This document shows positions 28,359-39,231 of a stretch of DNA of 64,000 nucleotides, one piece after another. The notes under the pieces were generated by a model. That model worked only from the letters and a program-made list of their open reading frames with translations, did no database searches and was not told where the DNA came from. The stretch is from Shinella fusca (GTDB taxonomy: Bacteria > Pseudomonadota > Alphaproteobacteria > Rhizobiales > Rhizobiaceae), in the NCBI RefSeq assembly GCF_014203155.1, contig NZ_JACHIK010000007.1, positions 124,001 to 188,000 of the forward strand. Direction: 5' to 3'. A program made the translations under genes and the position numbers. Positions within the stretch are counted from its first letter, which is position 1; every line of letters starts with the position of its first letter.

Positions 28359-30041
28359 TCAGGCGAGCCAGGCCGGCAGGCGTGGCGGCACGCGGCCGGT
28401 CAGCGCCGCCTCCACGCAATCGGCAAGGTTGCCGAAGCGCACGGTGCGGCCGGAAAGACCCGGGCCGTAATGGGCGTATTTGCCGGAATTGGTGATGAGC
28501 GCCCGCGTCTTCGTCGGGAAGACGGGCTCGGAGATCGAGCACCAGCAGAGGTCCGGCAGCACCTGCACACCGCTTTCCCGCAGCCGGGCAAGGACGTCGC
28601 CGGCTTCGGCCATGACGTCGCGGCCGGCGGTGACGATCACCGTGACGTCCCCGTGCCGCTTGCGGCCGGCAAGCGCGTCGGCGAAGGCGCGGCATTCGGA
28701 GGCCGAGGCATGCGGGCTGCCGATGGCGACGAGCTCGACTTCTTCGGGGCCGTCGTTGAACATCGTCCAGACGTCGATCATGTCGGCGCGGGTGATCGCC
28801 GCACGGTCGGCATCCGGCGCGGCGGCGCCCTCGGCCTCGGGCGTCACGCCCTCGATATGCAGCATGGGTGCGGCCGAGGTGGTGCCGAAGGCGGCGCAGA
28901 GGGCCTTGAGGTCGTCCCGCGTCGGTTTCGCATCGACAAGGCCGGTGAGGAGGGGGATGCGGTCCGGCGCGGCGCGGCCGGCGAGATAGCCGACCAGCGG
29001 CCAGAAGGCGTCGTCGATCTTCTCGGGAAGCTCCACCGCGATGACGCGGCTCGCCTTGCGGTGTTCGGCAAGATAGACGCCGGAAAGCGGCGCGCGGCCG
29101 GTGAGGGCGATGCAGAGGTCGAGGAAGTCCGGGTGCTTGGCCGTGCGCGCGCCGAGCACGGTGTTGGCGAAGATCACGGCATTGGATTCGGCCCAGGCGA
29201 TCGCCTCGCCCGCCTTCGGCGCGCTGTCGAGCAGGTAGGGCGAGCAGGTAAAGGTCGGCCGGCAGCCCATGCGCACATAGGCGTCGGCAAGCCGGGCGGC
29301 CGGATCGCCGAAGTCGTGCGGCACGCCCTGCCTCTCCCAGTTGGCGCGGTCGACGGAAATGGCGTTCATCGTGGTCGGCACGCGCACCTTCGCGCCCATG
29401 TCCGCCATCTTCTCGGCAAAGGTCAGGTTGGCGGGGCTGGCATAGATGCAGCCGTCGATATGGCCCTGCACCACGTCGACGAGCTTTTCCGCGCCCTGCT
29501 GGGCGGCCATGGCGGCGGTGATGCGCATGGCGAGCTGCACGGCGATGCCGTCGCGGCCCTCCAGCATGGCGCGGTCGTCGCCGGTGAGGTCGAGCGCGGC
29601 GGTGGCGGGCGGGGAGACGGGGACCGTCAGGCCGTCGGCCTCGATGGCCGTGTCGCCTATCCTTGCCGACTTCGCCCGACAGAGCGTGTCGAAGGCATCG
29701 TGAGAGAGGCGCAGCACCGGCAGCGACTTGCCGAACATCTCGGCGGCGATGAGCGCGCCGAGGGTCAGCACGTCCTCCGCCTCGCTGAAGATGAGGGCCG
29801 CGGGCGCGCGGCCGGTCAGCGCGAGGTCGAGCAGCACGCCGGAGCCCGTGCAGGAGCCGCGGCTCGACGGCATCATCAGGATGCCGCCGGTGATCGTTCT
29901 GCCGTGCAGCGGATGGTGCACGTCGATGACCTTGCCGGTCGCCGGATCGACCCCGCCCCAGAAGCTCAGCGCCTCTCCCGCCGCGATGATCGGGCCGGCG
30001 GCGGTGCCGGCGAGGATGCTGCGGGCGGAAAGGTCGGCCAT
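28359..30041 (-). CDS. acnX: Aconitase X, fused small and large domains (cis-3-hydroxy-L-proline dehydratase type)
   Basis: 560 residues. Residues ~5-130 are the swivelling small domain (DUF126: [38 protein letters not shown]), fused to the large DUF521 domain (~140-550: [87 protein letters not shown]). Fused bacterial AcnX proteins have been characterised as cis-3-hydroxy-L-proline dehydratases giving delta1-pyrroline-2-carboxylate; the context here agrees. It is ten bases after the D-amino-acid dehydrogenase gene, at the end of the transporter operon. The specific substrate is inferred. Confidence 0.88.
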
Positions 30042-30051
30042 GGGACGGCTC

Positions 30052-31302
30052 CTAGAAGCGTTGCGGAGAGAAGGGGGCGATGTCGATGCTCGTCGGCTGC
30101 CCCGTCAGGAGCTCGGCGACGAGACGGGCGGTGCCGGCCGACTGGGTGAGGCCGAGATGGCCGTGGCCGAAGGCGTAGACGACGTTCGCCGTCGCGCGGG
30201 CGCGGCCGATGGCCGGCAGGCTGTCCGGCATGGAGGGGCGGAAGCCCATCCACTGCACGCCGCCGTCCGGCTTCAGGCCGGGCAGGAAGCGCCGCGCCTT
30301 CTCCAGCATGGCTTCCGACCGGCGGAAGTTCGGCGGTAGCTTCAGTCCGCCGAGCTCCACCGCGCCGCCAACGCGGATGCCGGTCGAAAGCCGGGTGACG
30401 ACGAAGCCGTGGCCGCCGAAGGTGACCTGCGTGCGGAGGTCGAAGGCGTCCGCCGGCAGCGTCGTGTTGTAGCCGCGCTCGGTTTCGAGCGGGATGTTTT
30501 CGCCAAGGCCGCGCGCAAGAAGGTGCGAGAAGGCGCCGGCTGCGAGCACGACCCGCTCCACGCGCCGCGTGCGCCCGTCCGCGGTGGCGATCTCCACGCC
30601 GCCGTCTATGGCTTTCAGGCCGGAGACCTCGGCGCGCTCGATCACGCCGCCCCTGGCACGGAAATGGTCGGCGAGCGCCAGCGTGTAGAGCTTCGGGTCG
30701 GCGATGGAATACCAGCCGGGCGTGAAGGTGCCGTGCGTGAAGCGCGGGGCGAGGCCGGGCTGGATCTCCGCCATCCCGGCGGCGTCCATGTGGCGGAATT
30801 CGATGCCGTGTTCCGCGCGGGCCTTCCAGCCGGGCAGCGAGGTGTCGAGCTCGGCTTGGCTCTCGTAGACCTGGAGATTGCCTTCCTTGCGCAGCATGGA
30901 CGCCGTGCCGGTCTCAGTGAGGAACGGTTCGAGCGCGGCCTTGGAAAGGTCCATCAGCGCCGTCTGCGCGGCGGTGGAAAGGGCGACGCGGCTCGCCGAG
31001 CAGGCGCGCCAGAAGCGGAACATCCACGGCGCGATCTGCATGGCATAGGACGGCGGTATGCTGAGCGGCCCGAGCGGGTCGAGCAGCCATTTCGGCGCTT
31101 TCCTCAGGATGCCGGGCGAGGCGAGCGGCAGGATGTCGGTGAAGGCGAAGGCGCCTGCGTTGCCGGCGGAGGCGCCCGCGGCGGGAGCCTCGCGTTCGAG
31201 GACGGTGACGGCAAGGCCGCGCGCCTCAAGCGCGATGGCGGCCGACAGGCCGACCACGCCGGCGCCGATGACGACGACGCCGGGCTCGATTTCGGTTTTC
31301 AT
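30052..31302 (-). CDS. hypO: FAD-dependent D-amino acid (D-hydroxyproline) dehydrogenase
   Basis: 416 residues of the DadA/DAO family. The N-terminal dinucleotide fingerprint [29 protein letters not shown] binds [11 protein letters not shown] and the C-terminal [23 protein letters not shown] are typical of DadA. Within this gene set it most likely oxidises cis-4-hydroxy-D-proline to 1-pyrroline-4-hydroxy-2-carboxylate (HypO/LhpB role). Preceded by the importer ATPase (7-base gap) and followed by acnX (10-base gap). General D-amino-acid or D-proline oxidation is the alternative. Confidence 0.85.
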
Positions 31303-31309
31303 GTTGGCC

Positions 31310-32032
31310 TCAGTGCGTTGCGGCGAGGAAGGTCTGGAGCTCGGGGTCCTTCGGCGCGTCGAACAGCTCTTCCGGCGGGGCGATCTCGGCCATCACGCCC
31401 TTGTGGAAGAAGGCAACGCGGTCGGAGACCTCGCGGGCGAACTTCATTTCATGCGTCACGCAGATCATCGTCATGCCCTCGGAGGCGAGCATGCGCAGCG
31501 TGTCGAGCACTTCGCCGACGAGCTGCGGGTCGAGCGCCGAGGTCACCTCGTCGAACAGCATGTAGGCTGGCGACATGGCGAGCGCGCGGGCGATCGCCAT
31601 GCGCTGCTGCTGGCCGCCGGACATGCGGCTCGGATAGACCTTGAGCTTGTCGGCGAGCCCGACATGGCTGAGCTGCTTGACGGCCATCGCCTCGGCCTCG
31701 GCCTTCGACTGGCCGAGCACCTTGACCGGCGCCAGCATGACGTTCTCCAGCACGGTCAGGTGCGGGAAGGCGTTGAACTGCTGGAAGACGATGCCGAGCT
31801 TGCGCCGCAGCTTGTTGAGGTCCGTGCCCTTGGCATGGACGTCGGTGCCGTCGACGACGATGCGGCCGGCGTCGATGGTCTCCAGCCCGTTGATGCAGGT
31901 CAGCAGCGTCGACTTGCCCGAGCCCGAGCCGCCGATGATGGTCAGCACCTCGCCCTTCTTCACGGTGAGGTTGATCCCCTTGAGGACTTCGAGCTGGCCG
32001 AAGGATTTGCGGACGTTTTCGATCTCAATCAT
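31310..32032 (-). CDS. Polar amino acid ABC importer, ATPase
   Basis: 240 residues from ATG 32032. All motifs of the PAAT-family ATPase are intact: Walker A GGSGSGKST, Q-loop VFQQFNAFPHLTVLENV, signature MSGGQQQRMAIARAL, Walker B MLFDEVTSALDPQLVGEVL, and H-loop VTHEM. It overlaps the upstream permease by 8 bases. With the two permeases and binding protein it forms one importer, probably for hydroxyprolines given its operon partners. Confidence 0.95.
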   Translation of the reverse strand: MIEIENVRKSFGQLEVLKGINLTVKKGEVLTIIGGSGSGKSTLLTCINGLETIDAGRIVVDGTDVHAKGTDLNKLRRKLGIVFQQFNAFPHLTVLENVMLAPVKVLGQSKAEAEAMAVKQLSHVGLADKLKVYPSRMSGGQQQRMAIARALAMSPAYMLFDEVTSALDPQLVGEVLDTLRMLASEGMTMICVTHEMKFAREVSDRVAFFHKGVMAEIAPPEELFDAPKDPELQTFLAATH

Positions 32033-32678
32033 TGGGGGACCACCGTTTTTCGAGATACCCGCCAAGCCGGGCGACTGGGAAGGAGATGATGAAGTAGATG
32101 GCGCCGCAGATGATGAGGATGAACAGCGGCTCCTGAAGGCGCGTGACGAGGATCTGCGAGGCGCGCAGCAGCTCGATGAGGCCGAGCCAGAGCACGAGCG
32201 CCGAATCCTTCATGACGCCGAGCGTCAGGCCGATCCAGGCGGGCAGCGAGACGCGCGTGGCGAGCGGGGCCACGATGTAGCGCATGTCCTGCCACCAGGT
32301 GAGACCCAGCGAGCGGGCGGCGCGGCGCGTCGTCGCCGGCACGGAGGAGATGCCGCCGCGCACGATCTCGGTGCAATAAGCGGCCGTATAGAGCGACAGC
32401 ACGACGCAGGACGTGGTGAAGGGCGGCCAGCCGAGCTTGAAGATAGACTGCGCCGCATTGCCGAGCACGAGCTGGATGAGCAGCGGCACGGAGCGGAAGA
32501 CGTCGAGCAGGAAGGTCAGCGGGATCGACCAGTAGGGACCGGCCTGGTTGCGGATGACGCCGAAGACGATGCCGAGGATGGTGCCCGCGATGACGGAGAC
32601 GGCGGTGACGGCGAGCGTCATGGCCGCGCCCTGCGCGAGGAAGCCGAGATCGGCCAGGGTGAGGGAGGTGTCGAACAT
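32025..32678 (-). CDS. Polar amino acid ABC importer, permease 2
   Basis: 217 residues with about five membrane helices. The HisM/GlnP-type permease signature is present (EIVRGGISSVPATTRRAARSLGLTWWQDMRYIVAPLA). It sits 12 bases after permease 1 and overlaps the ATPase gene by 8 bases. It acts in the inner membrane as half of a heterodimeric channel. Confidence 0.93.
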   Translation of the reverse strand: MFDTSLTLADLGFLAQGAAMTLAVTAVSVIAGTILGIVFGVIRNQAGPYWSIPLTFLLDVFRSVPLLIQLVLGNAAQSIFKLGWPPFTTSCVVLSLYTAAYCTEIVRGGISSVPATTRRAARSLGLTWWQDMRYIVAPLATRVSLPAWIGLTLGVMKDSALVLWLGLIELLRASQILVTRLQEPLFILIICGAIYFIISFPVARLGGYLEKRWSPND

Positions 32679-32690
32679 GGCTTACCCCTC

Positions 32691-33356
32691 TCAGTAGCGG
32701 AACATGCGCGCGGCGAAGAGGCGCGCGATGAGCGTCACGGCCTTGGCGATGAGATAGTAGATCACCGCCGCGATCGCGAAGAATTCGAAGGTGCGGAAGG
32801 AACGGGCGTTCAGCTCCTGCGTGACGCCGGCAAGGTCGGTATTCATGCCGACGGTGACGCCGAGCGAGGTCATCAGGATCGCCCAGACCATCTGGTTGGT
32901 GGCCGGCAGGAAGGCGACGCGCAGCATCTGCGGCAGCACGATGTAGCGGAAGGCCTGCAGCGGCGTCATGCCGAGCGAACGGCCGGCGCGCGTCTGCGTG
33001 TCCGGGATCGCCTTCAGCGCGCCGCGGAAGTTCTCCGCAAGATAGCCGGCATTGTTGAAGGCGATGCCGACCAGAAGCGCCGTATAGGGGCTGAGGTGGA
33101 TGCCGAAATTGCCGAGGCCGAAATGGGCCATGTAGATCTGGAAGAGCGCCGGCGTGTTGCGCGCGATCTCGACCCAGCCCGTGGCGAAGCCGCTCAAGGC
33201 GCGGTTGCCGGACAGGCGGAAGAGCGTCAGCGCCAGGGCGACCGCAAGGCCGACGACCATGGACAGGATCGCGATCTGCAGCGTGACCAGAGCGCCGTCC
33301 AGCATCTGCGGCAGCGCCTTGAACGCCTGGTTCCAGTGGAAGGAATAACTGATCAT
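32691..33356 (-). CDS. Polar amino acid ABC importer, permease 1
   Basis: 221 residues from ATG 33356, preceded by AAGGGTGAG. Five hydrophobic helices and the coupling motif AENFRGALKAIPDTQTRAGRSLGMTPLQAFRYIVLP (EAA loop) assign it to the HisMQ family. It is 68 bases downstream of the binding-protein gene, with no strong terminator between. Confidence 0.93.
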   Translation of the reverse strand: MISYSFHWNQAFKALPQMLDGALVTLQIAILSMVVGLAVALALTLFRLSGNRALSGFATGWVEIARNTPALFQIYMAHFGLGNFGIHLSPYTALLVGIAFNNAGYLAENFRGALKAIPDTQTRAGRSLGMTPLQAFRYIVLPQMLRVAFLPATNQMVWAILMTSLGVTVGMNTDLAGVTQELNARSFRTFEFFAIAAVIYYLIAKAVTLIARLFAARMFRY

Positions 33357-33424: not shown

Positions 33425-34234
33425 TTAGCGATAAACGCCGTTGACGGACAGGGACGGAAGGTCGCCGCCGACCCACTTCTCGTAGAGCTCGGCGTAGCGG
33501 CCGGTACGGACCTGCTGGTTGATGAAGAGGTTCAGGTAGTTGATGAGGCCGTATTCTTCGCGGTTGGTGAAGAGCGAGACGTAGTCGATGTCGTAAGGAG
33601 CCATGCCGACGACGGAGATGCCGGCGAACTTGCCGCTCTTGACGTTGGACTGGGCAACCGTCGAGGTCGAGACGGTGGCGTCGATCTGGCCCTGGCTGAG
33701 CGCGAGGAAGACGTCGGCCTGGGTCTGGTACGGACGGAATTCCCCGGCGCCCCATTCCTTGACCGATTTTTCGAGCGCGATGGCCTCGAACGTGCCGGCG
33801 GTGGCGCCGACGGTCTTGCCCTTCATGTCCTCGAAGGACTTGATGCCCGACTTGTCGTTGGCGGTGACGGCCATCTGGAAGGCGAAGTAGGGGATCGTCA
33901 TGCCGACGGTCTTGGCGCGTTCCAGCGTGTCGGAGGTCGAGGCGACGCCGACGTCGACGCGGCCGGACATCAGGGCCGGGATGCGTTCCGGGAAGGGCGT
34001 TTCGACGATTTCGGCCGTGACGCCGAGCGCCTTGGCGAGGTCGTTGCAGTAATCGACGTCGAAGCCGATCGGGTTGTTGTTCTCGTCGCGCGAGCCCATC
34101 GGCGGGAAGTCGAGGACGACGGCGCAGCGCAGCGTGCCGGACGAGATGATGTCGTCCAGCTTGTCGGCCTTGGCCGGGCTGGTCAAAGCGGTGGCGGCAA
34201 CGAGGCCGAAGGCGAGGACCGAGGTCTTCTTCAT
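33425..34234 (-). CDS. Polar amino acid ABC importer, periplasmic substrate-binding protein
   Basis: 269 residues. The signal peptide MKKTSVLAFGLVAATALTSPAKA is probably cut before DKLDD. The mature protein is an SBP family 3 (type II) amino-acid-binding protein (GTLRCAVVLDFPPMG, PIGFDVDYCNDLAKALGV, FPERIPALMSGRVDVGVASTS with the Arg/Asp residues that hold an amino-acid head group). First gene of the importer-hypO-acnX operon. The 11-bp-spaced operator array lies 80 bases upstream. Confidence 0.94.
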   Translation of the reverse strand: MKKTSVLAFGLVAATALTSPAKADKLDDIISSGTLRCAVVLDFPPMGSRDENNNPIGFDVDYCNDLAKALGVTAEIVETPFPERIPALMSGRVDVGVASTSDTLERAKTVGMTIPYFAFQMAVTANDKSGIKSFEDMKGKTVGATAGTFEAIALEKSVKEWGAGEFRPYQTQADVFLALSQGQIDATVSTSTVAQSNVKSGKFAGISVVGMAPYDIDYVSLFTNREEYGLINYLNLFINQQVRTGRYAELYEKWVGGDLPSLSVNGVYR

Positions 34235-34312
34235 AACTCTCTCCCTGGGTTGGTCTGTCGATCCACGCGGGCGGAGGTCCGTCCTGCGCCAGAGGCGTAA
34301 ATCTCCTCTAAA

Positions 34313-34340
34313 ATACAAGTAATATACAAAAAGTATATAC
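34313..34340. promoter_or_regulatory. Operator array D (importer operon)
   Basis: ATACAA at 34313-34318 and again at 34324-34329, exactly 11 bases apart, with a weaker ATATAC at 34335-34340. It lies 80 bases upstream of the binding-protein start. The same hexamers and spacing recur at 35990, 38289 and 39041. Confidence 0.65.
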
Positions 34341-34357
34341 CTGCGGCGAGAAAATGT

Positions 34358-34393
34358 GCGGAGCATGGCCGTTCCGTGACGGCCGCGCTCCGC
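34358..34393 (-). terminator. Terminator of the semialdehyde dehydrogenase gene
   Basis: GCGGAGC (34358-34364) pairs with GCTCCGC (34387-34393), with an inner GGCCGT/ACGGCC stem. On the reverse strand it is followed by ACATTTTC. It lies 18 bases past the dehydrogenase stop and isolates that gene from the importer operon. Confidence 0.75.
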
Positions 34394-34411
34394 AGGGGGC
34401 AGGCCCTTGAC

Positions 34412-35929
34412 TTAGTTGAGGAAATCCTCCGGCAGCAGGCATTCCGGCATGTTCTGGTAGGAGACCGGGCGCAGGAAGCGGCGGATCGACAGGGTGCCGA
34501 CGCTCGTCGCGCCGAAATTGGTCGAGGCCGGGTAGGGGCCGCCGTGAACCATGGAATCCACCACTTCGACGCCCGTCGGGAAGCCGTTGACCAGCACGCG
34601 GCCGGCCTTGCGTTCCAGCACCGGGCGCAGGCGCTTGGCGTCATCGAGGTCGCCGGCATCCATGTGGATCGTCGCCGTCAGCTGGCCCTCGAAGTTGCGG
34701 GCGAGCTTTTCCATCTCGTCCACCGAGGAGACGCGCACGACGAGGCCGAGCGGGCCGAAGACCTCTTCGGAGAGCGCATGGTCGGCGAGGAACTGTTCGC
34801 CGGAGATCTCGAAGAGGTTCGGCAGCGCCTCGCGGCCTGAGGACTGCGTCGTCAGCAGCGGCTTGACCGTGTTGCGGCTCTCGAAGCGCGCCTGGCCGTC
34901 GTGATAGGCCTTGGCGATGCCGTCGGTCAGCATGGTCTGCGGGCCGACCTTGGAGAGCGCCTCCACGGCGGCGGCCGTGAAGCGGTCGGCATCCGCGCCG
35001 TCCGTGACGACGGCGATGCCCGGATTGGTGCAGAACTGGCCGGCGCCCATGGTGAGCGAGCCCGCCCAGCCCTGGCCGAGGCCTTCCGCGCGGGCCTTCA
35101 TGGCTTCCGGCAGCAGGAACATCGGGTTGACCGAGCCGAGCTCGCCGAAGAACGGGATTGGTTCCGGGCGGGCGGCGCACAGGTTGAAGAGGGCGCGGCC
35201 GCCGGCAAGCGAGCCGGTGAAGCCCACGGCCTTGATCAGCGGATGCTGCACGACGGCTTCGCCGACCTGGCGGTTGCCGCCCTGGATCAGCGAGAAGACG
35301 CCCGGATGCACGCCGGTCTTTTCGATGGCGGCAAGGACCGCCTCGGCGACGATCTCGCCGGTGCCCGGATGGGCGGAATGCCCCTTGACGACGACGGGGC
35401 AGCCGGCGGCAAGCGCCGCGGCCGTGTCGCCGCCGGCCGTCGAGAAGGCGAGCGGGAAGTTGGAGGCGCCGAAGACGGCGACCGGGCCGATCGGCCGCTG
35501 GATCAGGCGGATTTCCGGACGCGGCGCCGGCTGGCGGTCCGGCTGGGCGGCATCGAAGCGGCGGTCGAGGAAGTCGCCCTTCTCGATATGGTCGGCGAAG
35601 AGGCGGAGCTGGCCGGTCGTGCGGCCGCGCTCGCCCTGGAGGCGCGCGACGGGAAGGCCGGTCTCCTGCGTGCCGATCTCGGTGATGGCCTCGGCGCGGG
35701 CCTCGATCTCGTCGGCGATGGCGCGCAGGAAGGCGGCGCGCGTCGCACGGGAGGAATAGCCGTAGCTGAGGAAGGCTTCCTCTGCGGCCTCTGCGGCGCG
35801 GTTCACCAGCTCGACCGTGCCGACGGCGAATGCATGTGCCGGGCCATGGGCGGGAGAGGAGGTGAACGTGCCGTTGCCGTCCAGCCATTGACCGGCGACG
35901 AGGTGTTTACCGTTGGGAGTGAAAGCCAT
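34412..35929 (-). CDS. hypH: Alpha-ketoglutarate semialdehyde (2,5-dioxovalerate) dehydrogenase
   Basis: 505 residues, aldehyde dehydrogenase superfamily. The catalytic nucleophile is Cys300 in GAGQFCTNPG and the general base Glu263 in FFGELGSVNP; FGASNFPLAFS and GFTGSLAGG are cofactor-site motifs. GELGSVNP and QFCTNPG are characteristic of the KGSADH group that oxidises alpha-ketoglutarate semialdehyde to 2-oxoglutarate. That is the last step of hydroxyproline (and some sugar-acid) breakdown, matching the HypD-like gene upstream. It is divergent from the LDH2-family gene and has its own terminator. Confidence 0.92.
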   Translation of the reverse strand: MAFTPNGKHLVAGQWLDGNGTFTSSPAHGPAHAFAVGTVELVNRAAEAAEEAFLSYGYSSRATRAAFLRAIADEIEARAEAITEIGTQETGLPVARLQGERGRTTGQLRLFADHIEKGDFLDRRFDAAQPDRQPAPRPEIRLIQRPIGPVAVFGASNFPLAFSTAGGDTAAALAAGCPVVVKGHSAHPGTGEIVAEAVLAAIEKTGVHPGVFSLIQGGNRQVGEAVVQHPLIKAVGFTGSLAGGRALFNLCAARPEPIPFFGELGSVNPMFLLPEAMKARAEGLGQGWAGSLTMGAGQFCTNPGIAVVTDGADADRFTAAAVEALSKVGPQTMLTDGIAKAYHDGQARFESRNTVKPLLTTQSSGREALPNLFEISGEQFLADHALSEEVFGPLGLVVRVSSVDEMEKLARNFEGQLTATIHMDAGDLDDAKRLRPVLERKAGRVLVNGFPTGVEVVDSMVHGGPYPASTNFGATSVGTLSIRRFLRPVSYQNMPECLLPEDFLN

Positions 35930-35989
35930 TTGACGTACCTTTCTCGGGGGATAGGGATTCGCCCGGCAGGAGAGGCGGGCGAATTGCAC

Positions 35990-36017
35990 TTGTCGAAATC
36001 TTGTATACTCTATGTAT
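35990..36017. promoter_or_regulatory. Operator array C (hypH / LDH2 divergent promoter)
   Basis: TTGTCG (35990-35995), TTGTAT (36001-36006) and ATGTAT (36012-36017) follow one another at 11-base intervals. The array lies 61 bases ahead of the reverse-strand dehydrogenase and 53 bases ahead of the forward LDH2 gene, so it could control both. Confidence 0.65.
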
Positions 36018-36069
36018 GCAATTGTTCAATCGCCAACCTGCCGTGGTCGGCCAACCTGACGAGACGAAA

Positions 36070-37107
36070 ATGACGCAAAGCTCCACCCTGACGATTGACG
36101 CCCTTCATGCGCGTGTCGAAGCGATCTTCCTGAAGGCCGGCCTCAATGCAGTGCAGGCCGGAGCGCTTGCCCGCGTCATTGTCGCCGGTGAGCGTGACGC
36201 CTGCAAGTCTCACGGGATCTATCGTATCGAGGGTGCGCTGCGCACCGTCAAGGCCGGCAAGGTCAGGCCGGATGCGGTGCCGGTGCTCGACCGCAACGAG
36301 GGTTCGGCCATCGTCAAGGTCGATGCCGCGGGCGGCTTTGCCAACCCGGCCTTCGAGCTCGGCGTTCCGGTGCTTGCCGAACGTGCCCGCACGCTCGGCA
36401 TCGCCGCCCTCGTCATCAACGACTGCACGCATTTCTCGGCGCTCTGGCCGGAGGTGGAGGCGGTGACGAAGGAAGGCCTTGCCGCTCTCGTCATGTGCCC
36501 GAGCTATGCGACGGTCGCCCCCACCGGCGGCAGCAAGCCGCTGCTCGGCACCAATCCCTTCGCCTTCGGCTGGCCGCGCAAGGGGGCCCCGCCCTATGTC
36601 TTCGACTTCGCCACCTCCGTCGCCGCGCGCGGCGAGATCGAATTGCACCGCCGTGCCGGCAAGCAGCTTCCCGAAGGCTGGGCGATCGACGCCGACGGCA
36701 ACCCGACCACCGATCCGGAAGCCGCGCTTGCCGGCGCCATGCTGCCTTTCGGCGGGCACAAGGGCTCGGCCATCGGCACGATGATCGAGCTTCTCGCCGG
36801 CATCATGATCGGCGACCTGACGAGCCCGGAAGTGCTCGACTATCTCGGCACGACGACGCTCGTCCCCTTCCACGGCGAGCTCATCATCGCCATGTCGCCG
36901 GAAGCCTTCGCCAAGGGCCGCCCGGGCGATCCCTTCGCCCGCGCCGAAGTGCTCTTCGAGGCCATCGTCGGCGGCGGCGCACGCCTGCCCTCCCAGCGCC
37001 GCTTCGCCGCCCGCGGCAAGTCGGAAGCCGAGGGCGTCACGCTGACCGCCGCCGAGGTGGAGCAGCTCGACCGCCTGCTGGACGAGGGCCTCGACGCGGT
37101 CAACTGA
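36070..37107 (+). CDS. LDH2/malate-lactate dehydrogenase-family protein, probable delta1-pyrroline-2-carboxylate reductase
   Basis: 345 residues from ATG 36070; earlier in-frame ATGs fall within the operator array. The LDH2/MDH2 family is shown by ARVIVAGERDACKSHGIYRIEGAL, INDCTHFSALWPEVE, APTGGSKPLLGTNPFAFGWP and MLPFGGHKGSAIGTMIELLAG. Members beside hydroxyproline genes reduce delta1-pyrroline-2-carboxylate to L-proline with NAD(P)H, which would complete the route from AcnX. The only forward-strand gene of the locus, and divergent from hypH. Other keto-acid reductase activities are possible. Confidence 0.82.
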   Translation: MTQSSTLTIDALHARVEAIFLKAGLNAVQAGALARVIVAGERDACKSHGIYRIEGALRTVKAGKVRPDAVPVLDRNEGSAIVKVDAAGGFANPAFELGVPVLAERARTLGIAALVINDCTHFSALWPEVEAVTKEGLAALVMCPSYATVAPTGGSKPLLGTNPFAFGWPRKGAPPYVFDFATSVAARGEIELHRRAGKQLPEGWAIDADGNPTTDPEAALAGAMLPFGGHKGSAIGTMIELLAGIMIGDLTSPEVLDYLGTTTLVPFHGELIIAMSPEAFAKGRPGDPFARAEVLFEAIVGGGARLPSQRRFAARGKSEAEGVTLTAAEVEQLDRLLDEGLDAVN

Positions 37108-37135
37108 CCGCGGCCCGGCCTCACCCCGCTCTCGG

Positions 37136-37170
37136 CGTCATCCCCCGGGCTTGACCCGAGGATCCACGCC
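37136..37170. repeat. Dispersed intergenic palindromic repeat, copy 1
   Basis: The core CCCGGGCTTGACCCGAGG is an imperfect palindrome with flanks CGTCATCC and ATCCACGCC. The same element occurs twice more at 57564-57645. It lies between the convergent LDH2 and hypD-like genes. Confidence 0.75.
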
Positions 37171-37201
37171 CCACGACACGCCTTCGCCACAGGCAAAACA
37201 A

Positions 37202-37227
37202 AAAGGCCCTCCTTGCGGAGGGCCTTT
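37202..37227 (-). terminator. Terminator of the hypD-like gene
   Basis: AAAGGCCCTCC (37202-37212) and GGAGGGCCTTT (37217-37227) form a perfect 11-bp stem. On the reverse strand it ends in TTTTTGTTTTG. It stands 20 bases past the stop. Confidence 0.9.
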
Positions 37228-37247
37228 CGCTTGGGAGGCGCGTAAAT

Positions 37248-38210
37248 TTACGCCTTGTAGGTCTGCACGGCGCCGGGGAGCTCGCTCCATTCGGCATACC
37301 AGGTGTCGAAGAGCTTGAGCTGGCTTTCGACATAGCCGCGCTGGCTGTCGGAGAGCGCGTCGGTCTCGTTGAAGTGCAGCGTGTATTCCTTGTCGCCCTT
37401 CAGCACCATCATGTGCTTGAAGTAGAGGACGAGGTCCGGGCCTTCGTCGAACGAGGAGAGCACGCCGAGGGCCGATTCCAGCTCCAGCGCGCGGGCGCGG
37501 GCGTCCGCATCGCCCCGGGCGGCCGCCTGGGCGAGGTTGCACATGTGGAGGACTTCCTTCGGCAGCACGCAGCCGATGCCGGTGATCGCGCCGACGGCGC
37601 CGCAATTGACGAAGCCGTGGAAGACGCAGGTGTCGACGCCGATCATCAGCGAGACGTCGTCGTCCCGGCTGGTGATGTTCTCGGCCGCATAGCGCATGTC
37701 GGCAGCGCCGCCGAATTCCTTGAAGCCGACGAGGTTCTTGTGGTCCTGGCGCAGCGCGAAGAAGAGGTCGGCGCGCGTGGCGAAGCCGTAATAGGGGCTG
37801 TTGTAGATGACGGCCGGAAGATCGGGGGCGGCCGAGAGGATCGCCTTGAAGTGGTTCTTCTGGGCGGCGATGACGGAGCCGCGGGAAAGGACGCGCGGGA
37901 TGACCATCAGGCCCTGCGCGCCGACCTTCTGGGCGTGGGCGGCATGCGCGACGGCCGAGGCGGTGTTGACGGCGCCGGTGCCGACGATGACCGGGATGCC
38001 GGCCTTCACGAGGCGTTCGACGCCTTCCATGCGCTGTTCGTCGGTCAGGAGCGGCCAGTCACCCATCGAGCCGCAATAGACGACGGCGGACATGCCCTTT
38101 TCGATCAGTTCCTTGCCCTTGCGCACCAGCGCGTCGAAGTCGGGCGTGCGGTCGTCCTTGCAGGGGGTCATCAGGGCGGGAATGACACCGGAAAAAATCT
38201 TGGCCTTCAT
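37248..38210 (-). CDS. hypD: Dihydrodipicolinate-synthase-family protein, probable 1-pyrroline-4-hydroxy-2-carboxylate deaminase
   Basis: 320 residues of the DapA/NAL superfamily (class I aldolase fold). Schiff-base Lys164 lies in NLVGFKEFGG, and the conserved Tyr136 in VIYNSPYYG. SAVVYCGSMGDWPLLTDEQRMEG is typical of the HypD/LhpC deaminases that turn 1-pyrroline-4-hydroxy-2-carboxylate into alpha-ketoglutarate semialdehyde and ammonia, the substrate of the KGSADH encoded nearby. ATG 38210 follows AGGAGA. The strongest operator array (38289-38320) lies 79 bases upstream, and the FadR-type regulator gene just beyond it. Confidence 0.9.
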   Translation of the reverse strand: MKAKIFSGVIPALMTPCKDDRTPDFDALVRKGKELIEKGMSAVVYCGSMGDWPLLTDEQRMEGVERLVKAGIPVIVGTGAVNTASAVAHAAHAQKVGAQGLMVIPRVLSRGSVIAAQKNHFKAILSAAPDLPAVIYNSPYYGFATRADLFFALRQDHKNLVGFKEFGGAADMRYAAENITSRDDDVSLMIGVDTCVFHGFVNCGAVGAITGIGCVLPKEVLHMCNLAQAAARGDADARARALELESALGVLSSFDEGPDLVLYFKHMMVLKGDKEYTLHFNETDALSDSQRGYVESQLKLFDTWYAEWSELPGAVQTYKA

Positions 38211-38288
38211 GTCGATCTCCTATGGCGGGTTCGGTCGGGCGGTCGGCGATGCAAGGCCTCCCCCTCTCTCGACGATGGATATAGCATC

Positions 38289-38320
38289 TTGTATTTTATT
38301 TGTCGACAAGAAAAATACAA
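38289..38320. promoter_or_regulatory. Operator array A (hypD promoter)
   Basis: TTGTAT (38289) and TTGTCG (38300) are 11 bases apart; on the other strand CGACAA (38304) and ATACAA (38315) are again 11 apart. The whole is symmetrical about the perfect palindrome TTGTCGACAA (38300-38309), with outer arms TTGTATTTT/AAAATACAA. It is the fullest version of the motif shared by four promoters of the locus. Confidence 0.75.
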
Positions 38321-38324
38321 AAGC

Positions 38325-39029
38325 TCAAAGCGCGATATCGAGCCTGTCGTTCCGGCTGAAAAGCTTTTGCACCTGCGCGACGATCGCCTCCGCATGCGCC
38401 TTGCCGAGCCGGTCCGCCTCCTCGATGTCGCGCGCCTCGATGGCGGCGATGATCGCGGCATGCTCGTCCACGAAGCGCTGCGGGAACTGCTCTTCGTAGG
38501 ACTGGTAATAGAGCTGCAGGATGCGACGGCCCTCATCGAGCAGCCGACGGAACAGGCTGGTGAAATAGGGATTGCGGCCGGCCTCGGCGATGGCGGCGTG
38601 GAAGGCGGCATTGGTGGCGATCATCGTCAGGTTGTCGCGCATGGCCAGCGCCGCCGCATAATCCTCGTGGAAGCCCCTGATGACCGGCAGGTCCTCGGGC
38701 CGGTGGTTCTGCGCGGCAAGCCGCGTCGTCACCCGGTACATCAGCACCAGCGCGTCGAAGAAGGTGTGGAGGTTGAGGAAATCGATGTTCGACACCATGG
38801 TCGAGCGGTTCGGCAGGGTCTCGATCAACCCTTCGCCGGCAAGCCGCACCAAGGCTTCGCGGATCGGCGTGCGCGACATCTTGAACCGCTCGGCAAGCTG
38901 CACCTCGTCGATGGGGCTGCCGGGGGCGAGCTTCAGGTCGAGGATCTGGTCGCGCAGGAGGTCGTAGACCATCTTCACGCCGGAGCCGCGCTTGCGTTCG
39001 GGCAGGGAATGGGAATCGGTGTCGGTCAT
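38325..39029 (-). CDS. GntR/FadR-family regulator of the hydroxyproline locus
   Basis: 234 residues from ATG 39029, preceded by GAGG; a TTG at 39050 is inside the operator. The winged HTH lies at ~20-85 (VYDLLRDQILDLKLAPGSPIDEVQLAERFKMSRTPIREALVRLAGEGLIETLPNRSTMVS) and the FCD effector domain at ~95-225 with candidate metal-binding His/Asp residues (FHAAIAEAGRN, DEHAAIIAAIEARD). It is located directly upstream of hypD, and the same operator half-sites lie before its own gene and the other three transcription units, so it is the natural candidate for their regulator. Confidence 0.93.
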   Translation of the reverse strand: MTDTDSHSLPERKRGSGVKMVYDLLRDQILDLKLAPGSPIDEVQLAERFKMSRTPIREALVRLAGEGLIETLPNRSTMVSNIDFLNLHTFFDALVLMYRVTTRLAAQNHRPEDLPVIRGFHEDYAAALAMRDNLTMIATNAAFHAAIAEAGRNPYFTSLFRRLLDEGRRILQLYYQSYEEQFPQRFVDEHAAIIAAIEARDIEEADRLGKAHAEAIVAQVQKLFSRNDRLDIAL

Positions 39030-39040
39030 CGAAAATCCTC

Positions 39041-39061
39041 TTGTCGACAAAAGAAATACAA
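39041..39061. promoter_or_regulatory. Operator array B (regulator's own promoter)
   Basis: TTGTCGACAA (39041-39050), five bases, ATACAA (39056-39061). This is the same arrangement as 38300-38320 at array A. It ends twelve bases before the regulator ATG, as expected for autoregulation. Confidence 0.75.
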
Positions 39062-39231
39062 TTGTCCGCCGGCGCTATCAATCGTTTTAAGTGGGCCCTT
39101 TGGCGAAAGCGCCGTCAAGCCCGCCGGGCCGGCAGGCGACAAGAAGGATGGGGAAAGCCGCATGCGCGCAGCCCGTTCCGCGCCCCGCCGCGGGGAAGCG
39201 GCAGGGGGAGGCAGGGTTCGGTGCGGGCCGG

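Follow-up and report, generated by a model that had tools for sequence, protein, structure and literature searches.

An 11-bp Pitch Shared by Predicted HypR Operators in the Hydroxyproline Locus of Shinella fusca

Introduction

In Sinorhizobium meliloti, HypR represses the hyp genes, as reported without a DNA-binding assay in the accessible text of the two sources; the inducer is 4-hydroxy-L-proline, and the likely effector is cis-D-hydroxyproline or a downstream metabolite (PMC5343134, PMC6608401). Leyn et al. (2016) predicted HypR regulon sites across Proteobacteria, with repression of the hyp genes (PMC5343134), and a half-site TKGT/ACMA has been published for the FadR subfamily, with GT-N2-AC listed for HypR (PMC4494728). 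In this work, we analyze the hydroxyproline (hyp) locus of Shinella fusca in a stretch of 64,000 nt (contig NZ_JACHIK010000007.1, positions 124,001 to 188,000), referred to below as the window, from a genome of 4,851,211 bp in total. Four intergenic regions of this locus carry arrays of the half-sites TTGTAT/TTGTCG in steps of 11 bp, and their features make it likely that they are operators of HypR in which the 11-bp flanks are functional.

Related regulators offer several terms of comparison. According to Suvorova et al. (2015), many GntR palindromes have, to one side or to both, an additional and weaker half-site at 7-12 nt from the palindrome centre, for which alternative dimerisation, extra subunits or cooperative regulation were suggested (PMC4494728). 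NanR is an FCD-GntR repressor acting on (GGTATA)3, to which three dimers bind cooperatively (PMC8012715). The dimer of Atu1419/VanR from Agrobacterium fabrum binds the 10-bp palindrome ATGTATACAT, the G being read by an arginine (PMC7797058). Finally, direct repeats were noted in two of the seven sites of Streptomyces coelicolor HypR (PMC6608401).

Results

Structure of the Four Arrays

Array A (34313..34329, minus strand), upstream of the importer operon, is TTGTAT-N5-TTGTAT, with direct half-sites at 34313 and 34324. Array C (35990..36021, plus strand), in the region between hypH and ldh2, contains three half-sites in 11-bp steps, TTGTCG-N5-TTGTAT-N5-ATGTATGCAA. The remaining two, to which no strand was assigned, are organized around a palindromic core: Array B, in the hypR-hypD interval, is the symmetric 32-bp element TTGTAT-N5-TTGTCGACAA-N5-ATACAA (38289..38320), and Array D, upstream of hypR, is TTGTCGACAA-N5-ATACAA (39041..39061). 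Exact TTGTMK-N5-TTGTMK pairs are found at 34313-34329 (minus), 35990-36006 (plus), 38289-38305 (plus), 38304-38320 (minus) and 39045-39061 (minus). All five pairs fall in these four regions, in agreement with the first-pass annotation, which had proposed one 11-bp array common to them. The half-site positions given there also agree with the letters, except for the third half-site of Array C at 36012, listed among the TTGTAT/TTGTCG sites, which reads ATGTAT and is thus one base off TTGTAT; Sinorhizobium/Ensifer relatives (e.g., locus L045) have TTGTAT at this position.

The half-sites agree with the published TKGT/ACMA and GT-N2-AC forms (PMC4494728). When scored as a palindrome of this type, TTGTCGACAA before hypD and hypR reaches 8/8, while the best dyads reach 6/8 conserved bases in Array C and 6/8 and 5/8 in Array A, neither array having a complete one. 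This raises the question of how many dimers an array would accommodate. It is possible, though doubtful, that a single HypR dimer occupies each region on the palindrome or the best dyad and that the 11-bp flanks provide auxiliary contacts, for instance for a wing or for the conserved basic N-terminal arm. Such an arrangement would fit the high conservation of the core palindrome at hypD and hypR (see below), the ability of Atu1419 to bind a lone 10-bp GT-N2-AC palindrome (PMC7797058) and the poor match to ACAA, at 0-1 of 4 bases, of the inner half of each dyad beside the core in Arrays B and D, so that a flanking dimer would make a single specific contact there. However, it is less easily reconciled with Arrays A and C, where no dyad is complete (at most 6/8 conserved bases), and with the hypD flanks, which read as half-sites with alternation of TTGTAT and TTGTCG.

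In an alternative geometry, unlikely in our view, a single HypR dimer would swing one of its DNA-binding domains so as to bind head to tail across a direct repeat of half-sites with the 11-bp step. The importer array is indeed a direct repeat, and NanR reorganises its DNA-binding domains on the DNA when bound to direct repeats (PMC8012715), but in the symmetric hypD array two 11-bp pairs overlap around a perfect dyad, and a single dimer could not engage both simultaneously. Both possibilities are variants within the operator reading; the likelihoods that we assign are therefore not meant to add up to one.

Specificity of the Arrays in the Genome

The five exact TTGTMK-N5-TTGTMK pairs in the window compare with 0.03 expected, and 100 dinucleotide shuffles yielded one at most. 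If the count is limited to TTGTAT/TTGTCG, the 11-bp spacing occurs five times, that of 27 bp once and all the others from 6 to 30 bp never. Genome-wide, the exact 17-bp pattern occurs six times, five of them in this locus (reversed control, one). Hexamer pairs pooled over gaps of 0-20 are common in the genome (166 vs. 54 in the control) and, among the matches listed, mostly codon-phased by eye, for which reason counts were restricted to specific spacings. The core palindrome TTGTCGACAA is present at five places, two in this locus and three inside long stop-to-stop frames (one of these near the end of its frame, right before a possible next start codon), and was set aside as insufficient for a marker on its own; the degenerate palindrome TTGTMKMKACAA has the wrong spacing (GT-N4-AC) and was uninformative.

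A sequence-only model, R1, was trained on 32 of the 38 non-redundant arrays from the orthologous loci described below, none from Shinella: six hypR picks whose best-scoring segment lay out of the array register (L046, L063, L073, L087, L105 and L109) were removed by hand, and twelve loci were excluded, namely, L106 and eleven from Shinella, the latter being nearest to the window by HypR identity. In its own genome (E<=10; 150 of the 382 first-look candidates scored), R1 gave five matches (E from 0.00165 to 0.55), none of them outside this locus, and every one of the four regions was represented: 34308-34334 (Array A), 35997-36022 (Array C), Array B on both strands and 39040-39065 (Array D). 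The three outside copies of TTGTCGACAA were not reported by R1, so that the array has a higher specificity than the palindrome alone, and two of the four regions lack the complete palindrome.

The matrix scan of this genome that the first-pass annotation had called for thus returned matches confined to the hyp locus, and the exact pattern is nearly as restricted (5/6). The same annotation had held that random matches across the genome would speak against the arrays. R1 gives no such matches, while a scan for hexamer pairs with one mismatch, which we rejected as a detector, is non-specific (54 genome matches vs. 69 for the reversed control), so the outcome depends on how loose the matrix is.

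Conservation of the Spacing in Related Loci

We compared 80 loci with HypR orthologues (74-96% identity), mapping the genes in each; hypD lies close to hypR in 79 of them, the gene setting that a HypR orthologue would have. For the spacing counts, the regions kept were 78/80 for hypR, 79/79 for hypD, 56/56 for the importer and 56/56 for hypH-ldh2, which thinning to a non-redundant set reduced to 59, 60, 40 and 32, respectively. Among the latter, exact same-strand pairs at 11 bp were found in 41/60 hypD, 30/40 importer and 20/32 hypH-ldh2 regions, the next commonest exact distance being present in 6, 1 and 1, and 40 rounds of shuffling gave none. When five of six matching bases were accepted, the 11-bp pairs extended to 60/60, 38/40 and 32/32 regions (shuffle means of 2.7, 2.6 and 1.6).

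The regions could also be anchored on the palindrome (hypD, 78/79; hypR, 64/80; non-redundant, 48 and 34). Outside the core, the match to the half-site in the 48 hypD regions peaks, on each strand, at -11 (4.46/6) and +11 (5.42/6), with a background beyond 13 bp of 1.92 +/- 0.36 (maximum 3.15). In both hypD and hypR regions, conservation is highest in the core palindrome, and 55 of 59 regions retain the downstream flank of hypD. The upstream one reads xTG[TC][AG]T in 33 of the 59, xTGTCG in 11 and otherwise in 15; switching between TTGTAT and TTGTCG at this flank would be expected if one protein reads the site. In 25 non-redundant hypH-ldh2 regions, the central TTGTAT is matched at no fewer than five of six bases in all cases, the half-site at +11 in 92% and that at -11 in 76%. 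The outer flank of hypR is mostly conserved as GTAT only.

For the importer regions, a profile alignment without gaps was abandoned in favour of the direct spacing counts: given the variable distance to the promoter, its register shifted from one locus to the next. At E<=0.5, R1 had 258 matches in the 80 loci. Counts with a position weight matrix (at a score of at least 14, 509 of 516 windows in hyp intergenic regions and 7 elsewhere) were not used, as training loci were included and arrays counted in more than one register.

Two of the loci deserve a separate mention. At L112:14337-14365, an 11-bp array directly follows a gene resembling a proline racemase/hydroxyproline epimerase and precedes a gene similar to those of monophosphatases, along with a different ABC transporter (all named by inspection of the translations); this might represent an additional HypR operon. 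Plasmid pTM2 of Tistrella mobilis (L074, 10001-10742), an alphaproteobacterium outside Rhizobiaceae, encodes a HypR 85% identical to that of S. fusca together with hypD, importer genes and arrays, which suggests that the locus and its operators moved by horizontal transfer.

Co-occurrence of Arrays and HypR

The 151 genomes of the family were divided into 47 with HypR (at least 52% identity) and 104 without it, the latter including five with weaker homologues (41-47%), under a cut set after viewing the list. The string TTGTCGACAA-N5-ATRCA is present in 27/47 genomes of the first group and in 3/104 of the second (p=4.5e-14, to be taken as a guide only since the genomes are related), and R1 matches (E<=0.05, at most 49 candidates scored per genome) in 33/47 and 1/104, respectively. 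These data support the link, put forward in the first-pass annotation, between the array and the FCD-GntR protein HypR. In the three genomes that have the string without HypR (G010, G103 and G135), spacers or flanks are GC-rich, and the sole R1 match in a genome without HypR (G093) lies inside a 275-aa stop-to-stop frame. The pattern TTGTATN5TTGTATTTT, present in 9 of the 151 genomes including G093, was not used as evidence.

The most telling single test of this link is that of linkage. In three genomes (G092, G081 and G094), hypR and arrays are on separate contigs, with the arrays before hypD (L117, L121 and L134), and L117 has a further array between ldh2 and an FAD oxidase. Moreover, unlinked arrays precede an oxidase homologue of 57% identity in G117 and G014 (L119 and L120). 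The presence of arrays before hyp genes on contigs devoid of hypR indicates that they follow the hyp genes and not the hypR neighbourhood alone.

Relation to Promoters

It might also be that the repeats are parts of promoters, such as -35/-10 boxes or AT-rich upstream elements, and not operators; we regard this as improbable. At hypR, a pair TTGA[TC]n-N17-TAT lies ahead of the palindrome in 33/59 regions, and the outer box coincides with its promoter-like -10, so that the GTAT of the outer half-site probably doubles as a -10 element, and selection on one role cannot be separated there from selection on the other. The importer array abuts a pair TTGATn-N17-.A.A.T, present in 26/40 regions, its end being 7 bp before TTGAT in 24/40; if this pair is the importer promoter, then the array lies upstream of the -35. 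By eye, the importer region of the window itself lacks the pair. Towards hypH, a distance of 16 bp separates TTGAn from GTATAC[AT] in 29/32 regions, and Array C would then cover the spacer and the -10. A promoter origin does not account, however, for the symmetry of the hypD element and its switching half-sites, or for R1 matches that are limited to the hyp locus in this genome and track HypR in the family; besides, a simple promoter scan, limited to the sigma-70 type, found no such pair in the region.

The HypR Protein and Its Paralogue

The gene hypR (38325..39029, minus strand) encodes the regulator that we infer to be the binder of the arrays. Pfam matches over the cut-off to GntR (61.4 bits, 6.6e-17) and FCD (72.6 bits, 5.1e-20) place it in the FCD subfamily of the GntR superfamily. 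Its AlphaFold model (mean pLDDT 75, the winged-helix part being of low confidence) has six helices between residues 87 and 225 and one more, of a pLDDT below 50, at 75-84; an FCD domain of six rather than seven helices is reported for the VanR group (PMC7797058). Among solved structures, the best fold match is the Brucella melitensis GntR protein 7u5q, and McbR, NanR and Atu1419/VanR are also matched. In 26 HypR orthologues, the recognition segment SRTPIREAL is invariant, and so are R12, R14, G15, S16 and G17 before helix 1; the first predicted helix starts at residue 16, with about 15 residues preceding it. Residues N140, H144, H190 and H212, candidates for the conserved acid/His ligands of FCD regulators with a metal site, are likewise invariant.

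The genome also encodes, on contig 2 (L135:2660-3238), a GntR/FCD-like paralogue 44% identical to HypR. That this or some other regulator binds the arrays appears very unlikely to us. The recognition helices of the two proteins are nearly identical (MSRSPIREAL in the paralogue vs. MSRTPIREAL in HypR), but the arrays co-occur with HypR orthologues and adjoin hypR, and contig 2 had no R1 match in the genome search (150 of the 382 first-look candidates scored).

Gene Organization of the Locus

The genes surrounding the arrays are those of hydroxyproline catabolism and uptake. A hypD-like gene of the DHDPS family (37248..38210, minus strand; Pfam DHDPS) is convergent with ldh2, of the Malate/L-lactate dehydrogenase family (36070..37107, plus strand; Pfam Ldh_2), which in turn is divergent from a hypH-like aldehyde dehydrogenase gene (34412..35929, minus strand; Pfam Aldedh). 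Between ldh2 and hypD, at 37201-37228, a terminator-like hairpin is followed by a T-rich tail, and the scan for such elements yields no excess over shuffles. The importer operon, on the minus strand, begins with a gene for a periplasmic binding protein (33425..34234; Pfam SBP_bac_3), and the five genes of the remaining importer/catabolic part (28359..33350) code for a presumed permease (32691-33350, the start at 33350 being estimated), a permease (32025-32678), an ATPase (31310-32065), an FAD oxidoreductase (30052-31302) and a cis-3-hydroxy-L-proline dehydratase (28359-30041; NCBIfam LhpI, 937 bits vs. a cut-off of 700). Since the last gene matches LhpI, the locus probably handles 3-hydroxyproline besides 4-hydroxyproline.

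Discussion

Sequence comparison thus lends good support to the elements themselves, to the pitch of 11 bp, to conservation among relatives and to the association with HypR and the hyp genes; that HypR binds them, with how many dimers and how cooperatively, and that it represses the genes in this organism, is what we infer from them. On this basis, a working model can be outlined. The unit of the operator would be a half-site, TTGTAT/TTGTCG, repeated at each helical turn (11 bp) and either inverted around the TTGTCGACAA core (hypD and hypR) or arranged in direct repeats (importer and hypH/ldh2). One HypR dimer would most likely settle on the best dyad, and the half-sites next to it, on the same helical face, would take up one or two more, making two dimers on Arrays A and D and three on Arrays B and C, one turn apart and assisting each other. 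Bound HypR would keep the promoters shut until its release by a hydroxyproline metabolite. In complexes of FadR-type regulators, the two recognition helices share a single major groove, so that dimers in successive grooves are geometrically possible, and the 11-bp step renders cooperative binding on one face a reasonable supposition. We hold the cooperative binding of several dimers to each array to be just short of probable. It may even be, and this we advance only tentatively, that the arrays represent a modular, helix-phased code, in which runs of TTGTNN half-sites, inverted or direct, are filled by a row of dimers. If this idea was correct, the number and orientation of the half-sites would set the strength of repression, and this would not require a long N-terminal extension like that of NanR.

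Several observations weigh against the operator reading or some part of it. At hypR, the exact 11-bp pairs (2/59 regions) are rare and fewer than those at 19 bp (3/59), and with five of six bases the 22-bp distance is ahead (17/59 vs. 8/59). At hypD, a 6-bp spacing reaches 50/60 regions with five of six bases (vs. 60/60 for 11 bp), and on the complementary strand the offset +6 scores 4.56, a signal that we put down to the conserved AT-rich/T-rich spacer; moreover, the left flank is missing from 15 of 59 regions. The poor inner halves of the dyads in Arrays B and D are unfavourable to a strict dimer-per-dyad arrangement. The probable double role of GTAT at hypR, the position of the importer array upstream of a promoter-like pair, which is unusual for simple repression, the near-identical recognition helix of the paralogue and the lack of specificity of the one-mismatch scan must also be taken into account. 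As for the comparative data, the loci share descent and their counts are not independent, and some of the family genomes are identical to, or close kin of, the loci that were compared. Fourteen of the 47 genomes with HypR have no R1 match; an unlinked array of G117 (L118:6957, minus strand) has no recognised hyp gene alongside, the two adjoining minus-strand frames having no Pfam match; and separate draft contigs may adjoin, so that the distance between hypR and the unlinked arrays is unproven.

If HypR reads the arrays, the locus would offer a natural set of one regulator and four operators, inverted and direct, with a fixed 11-bp pitch. Dozens of orthologous versions, some lacking one flank, would reveal whether the flanking half-sites recruit further dimers, and a matrix of the array would serve as a sharp tool in the search for HypR targets among relatives, operons distant from hypR included.

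Comparison with Known Systems

The first-pass annotation had set tandem arrays against the single short palindrome considered usual for FadR-type regulators; this contrast was overstated, given that extra half-sites (PMC4494728) and the direct repeats of NanR (PMC8012715) are already published. A constant 11-bp pitch across inverted and direct operators of one regulon was not found in print, although RegPrecise or White et al. (2012) may have it, and in the literature searched for GntR tandem 11-bp half-sites and for CsiR half-sites nothing closer emerged.

The HypR regulon of Leyn et al. concerns an orthologous system, but the method seeks palindromic motifs, and the accessible text mentions no tandem HypR operator (PMC5343134). 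The HypR of S. coelicolor is likewise a GntR/FCD repressor of hydroxyproline genes; its operator, however, is a single 14-nt CTNTGC(A/C)ATGTCAC, with a 21-bp footprint at its own promoter (PMC6608401). Atu1419, too, is an FCD-GntR repressor with GT-N2-AC palindromes overlapping promoter boxes, but it is a tetramer that loops between palindromes 190 bp apart, and no 11-bp array is described in the portion of the article available (PMC7797058). The direct hexamer repeats of NanR recall Arrays A and C; nevertheless, the repeat is distinct, and cooperativity requires an N-terminal extension of 32 residues, compared with about 15 residues in HypR (PMC8012715). Hence, in spite of the direct repeats, the lack of a long extension keeps the arrays out of the NanR-like operator class.

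The closest parallel is with the sites of Suvorova et al., which combine a GntR palindrome with an extra half-site. There, the observation is a pooled statistic, with orthologous groups unnamed in the available text, and is linked neither to HypR nor to a pitch of 11 bp (PMC4494728). In the arrays of this locus, the flanks often equal the core, and two of the operators consist of direct repeats and lack the complete core palindrome. The flanking hexamer lies 10.5-15.5 nt from the palindrome centre, compared with 7-12 nt in that work, whose distance convention may differ (PMC4494728). The extra half-sites beside GntR palindromes were left there for experiment (PMC4494728), and it is this already published theme that the arrays of the hydroxyproline locus extend.

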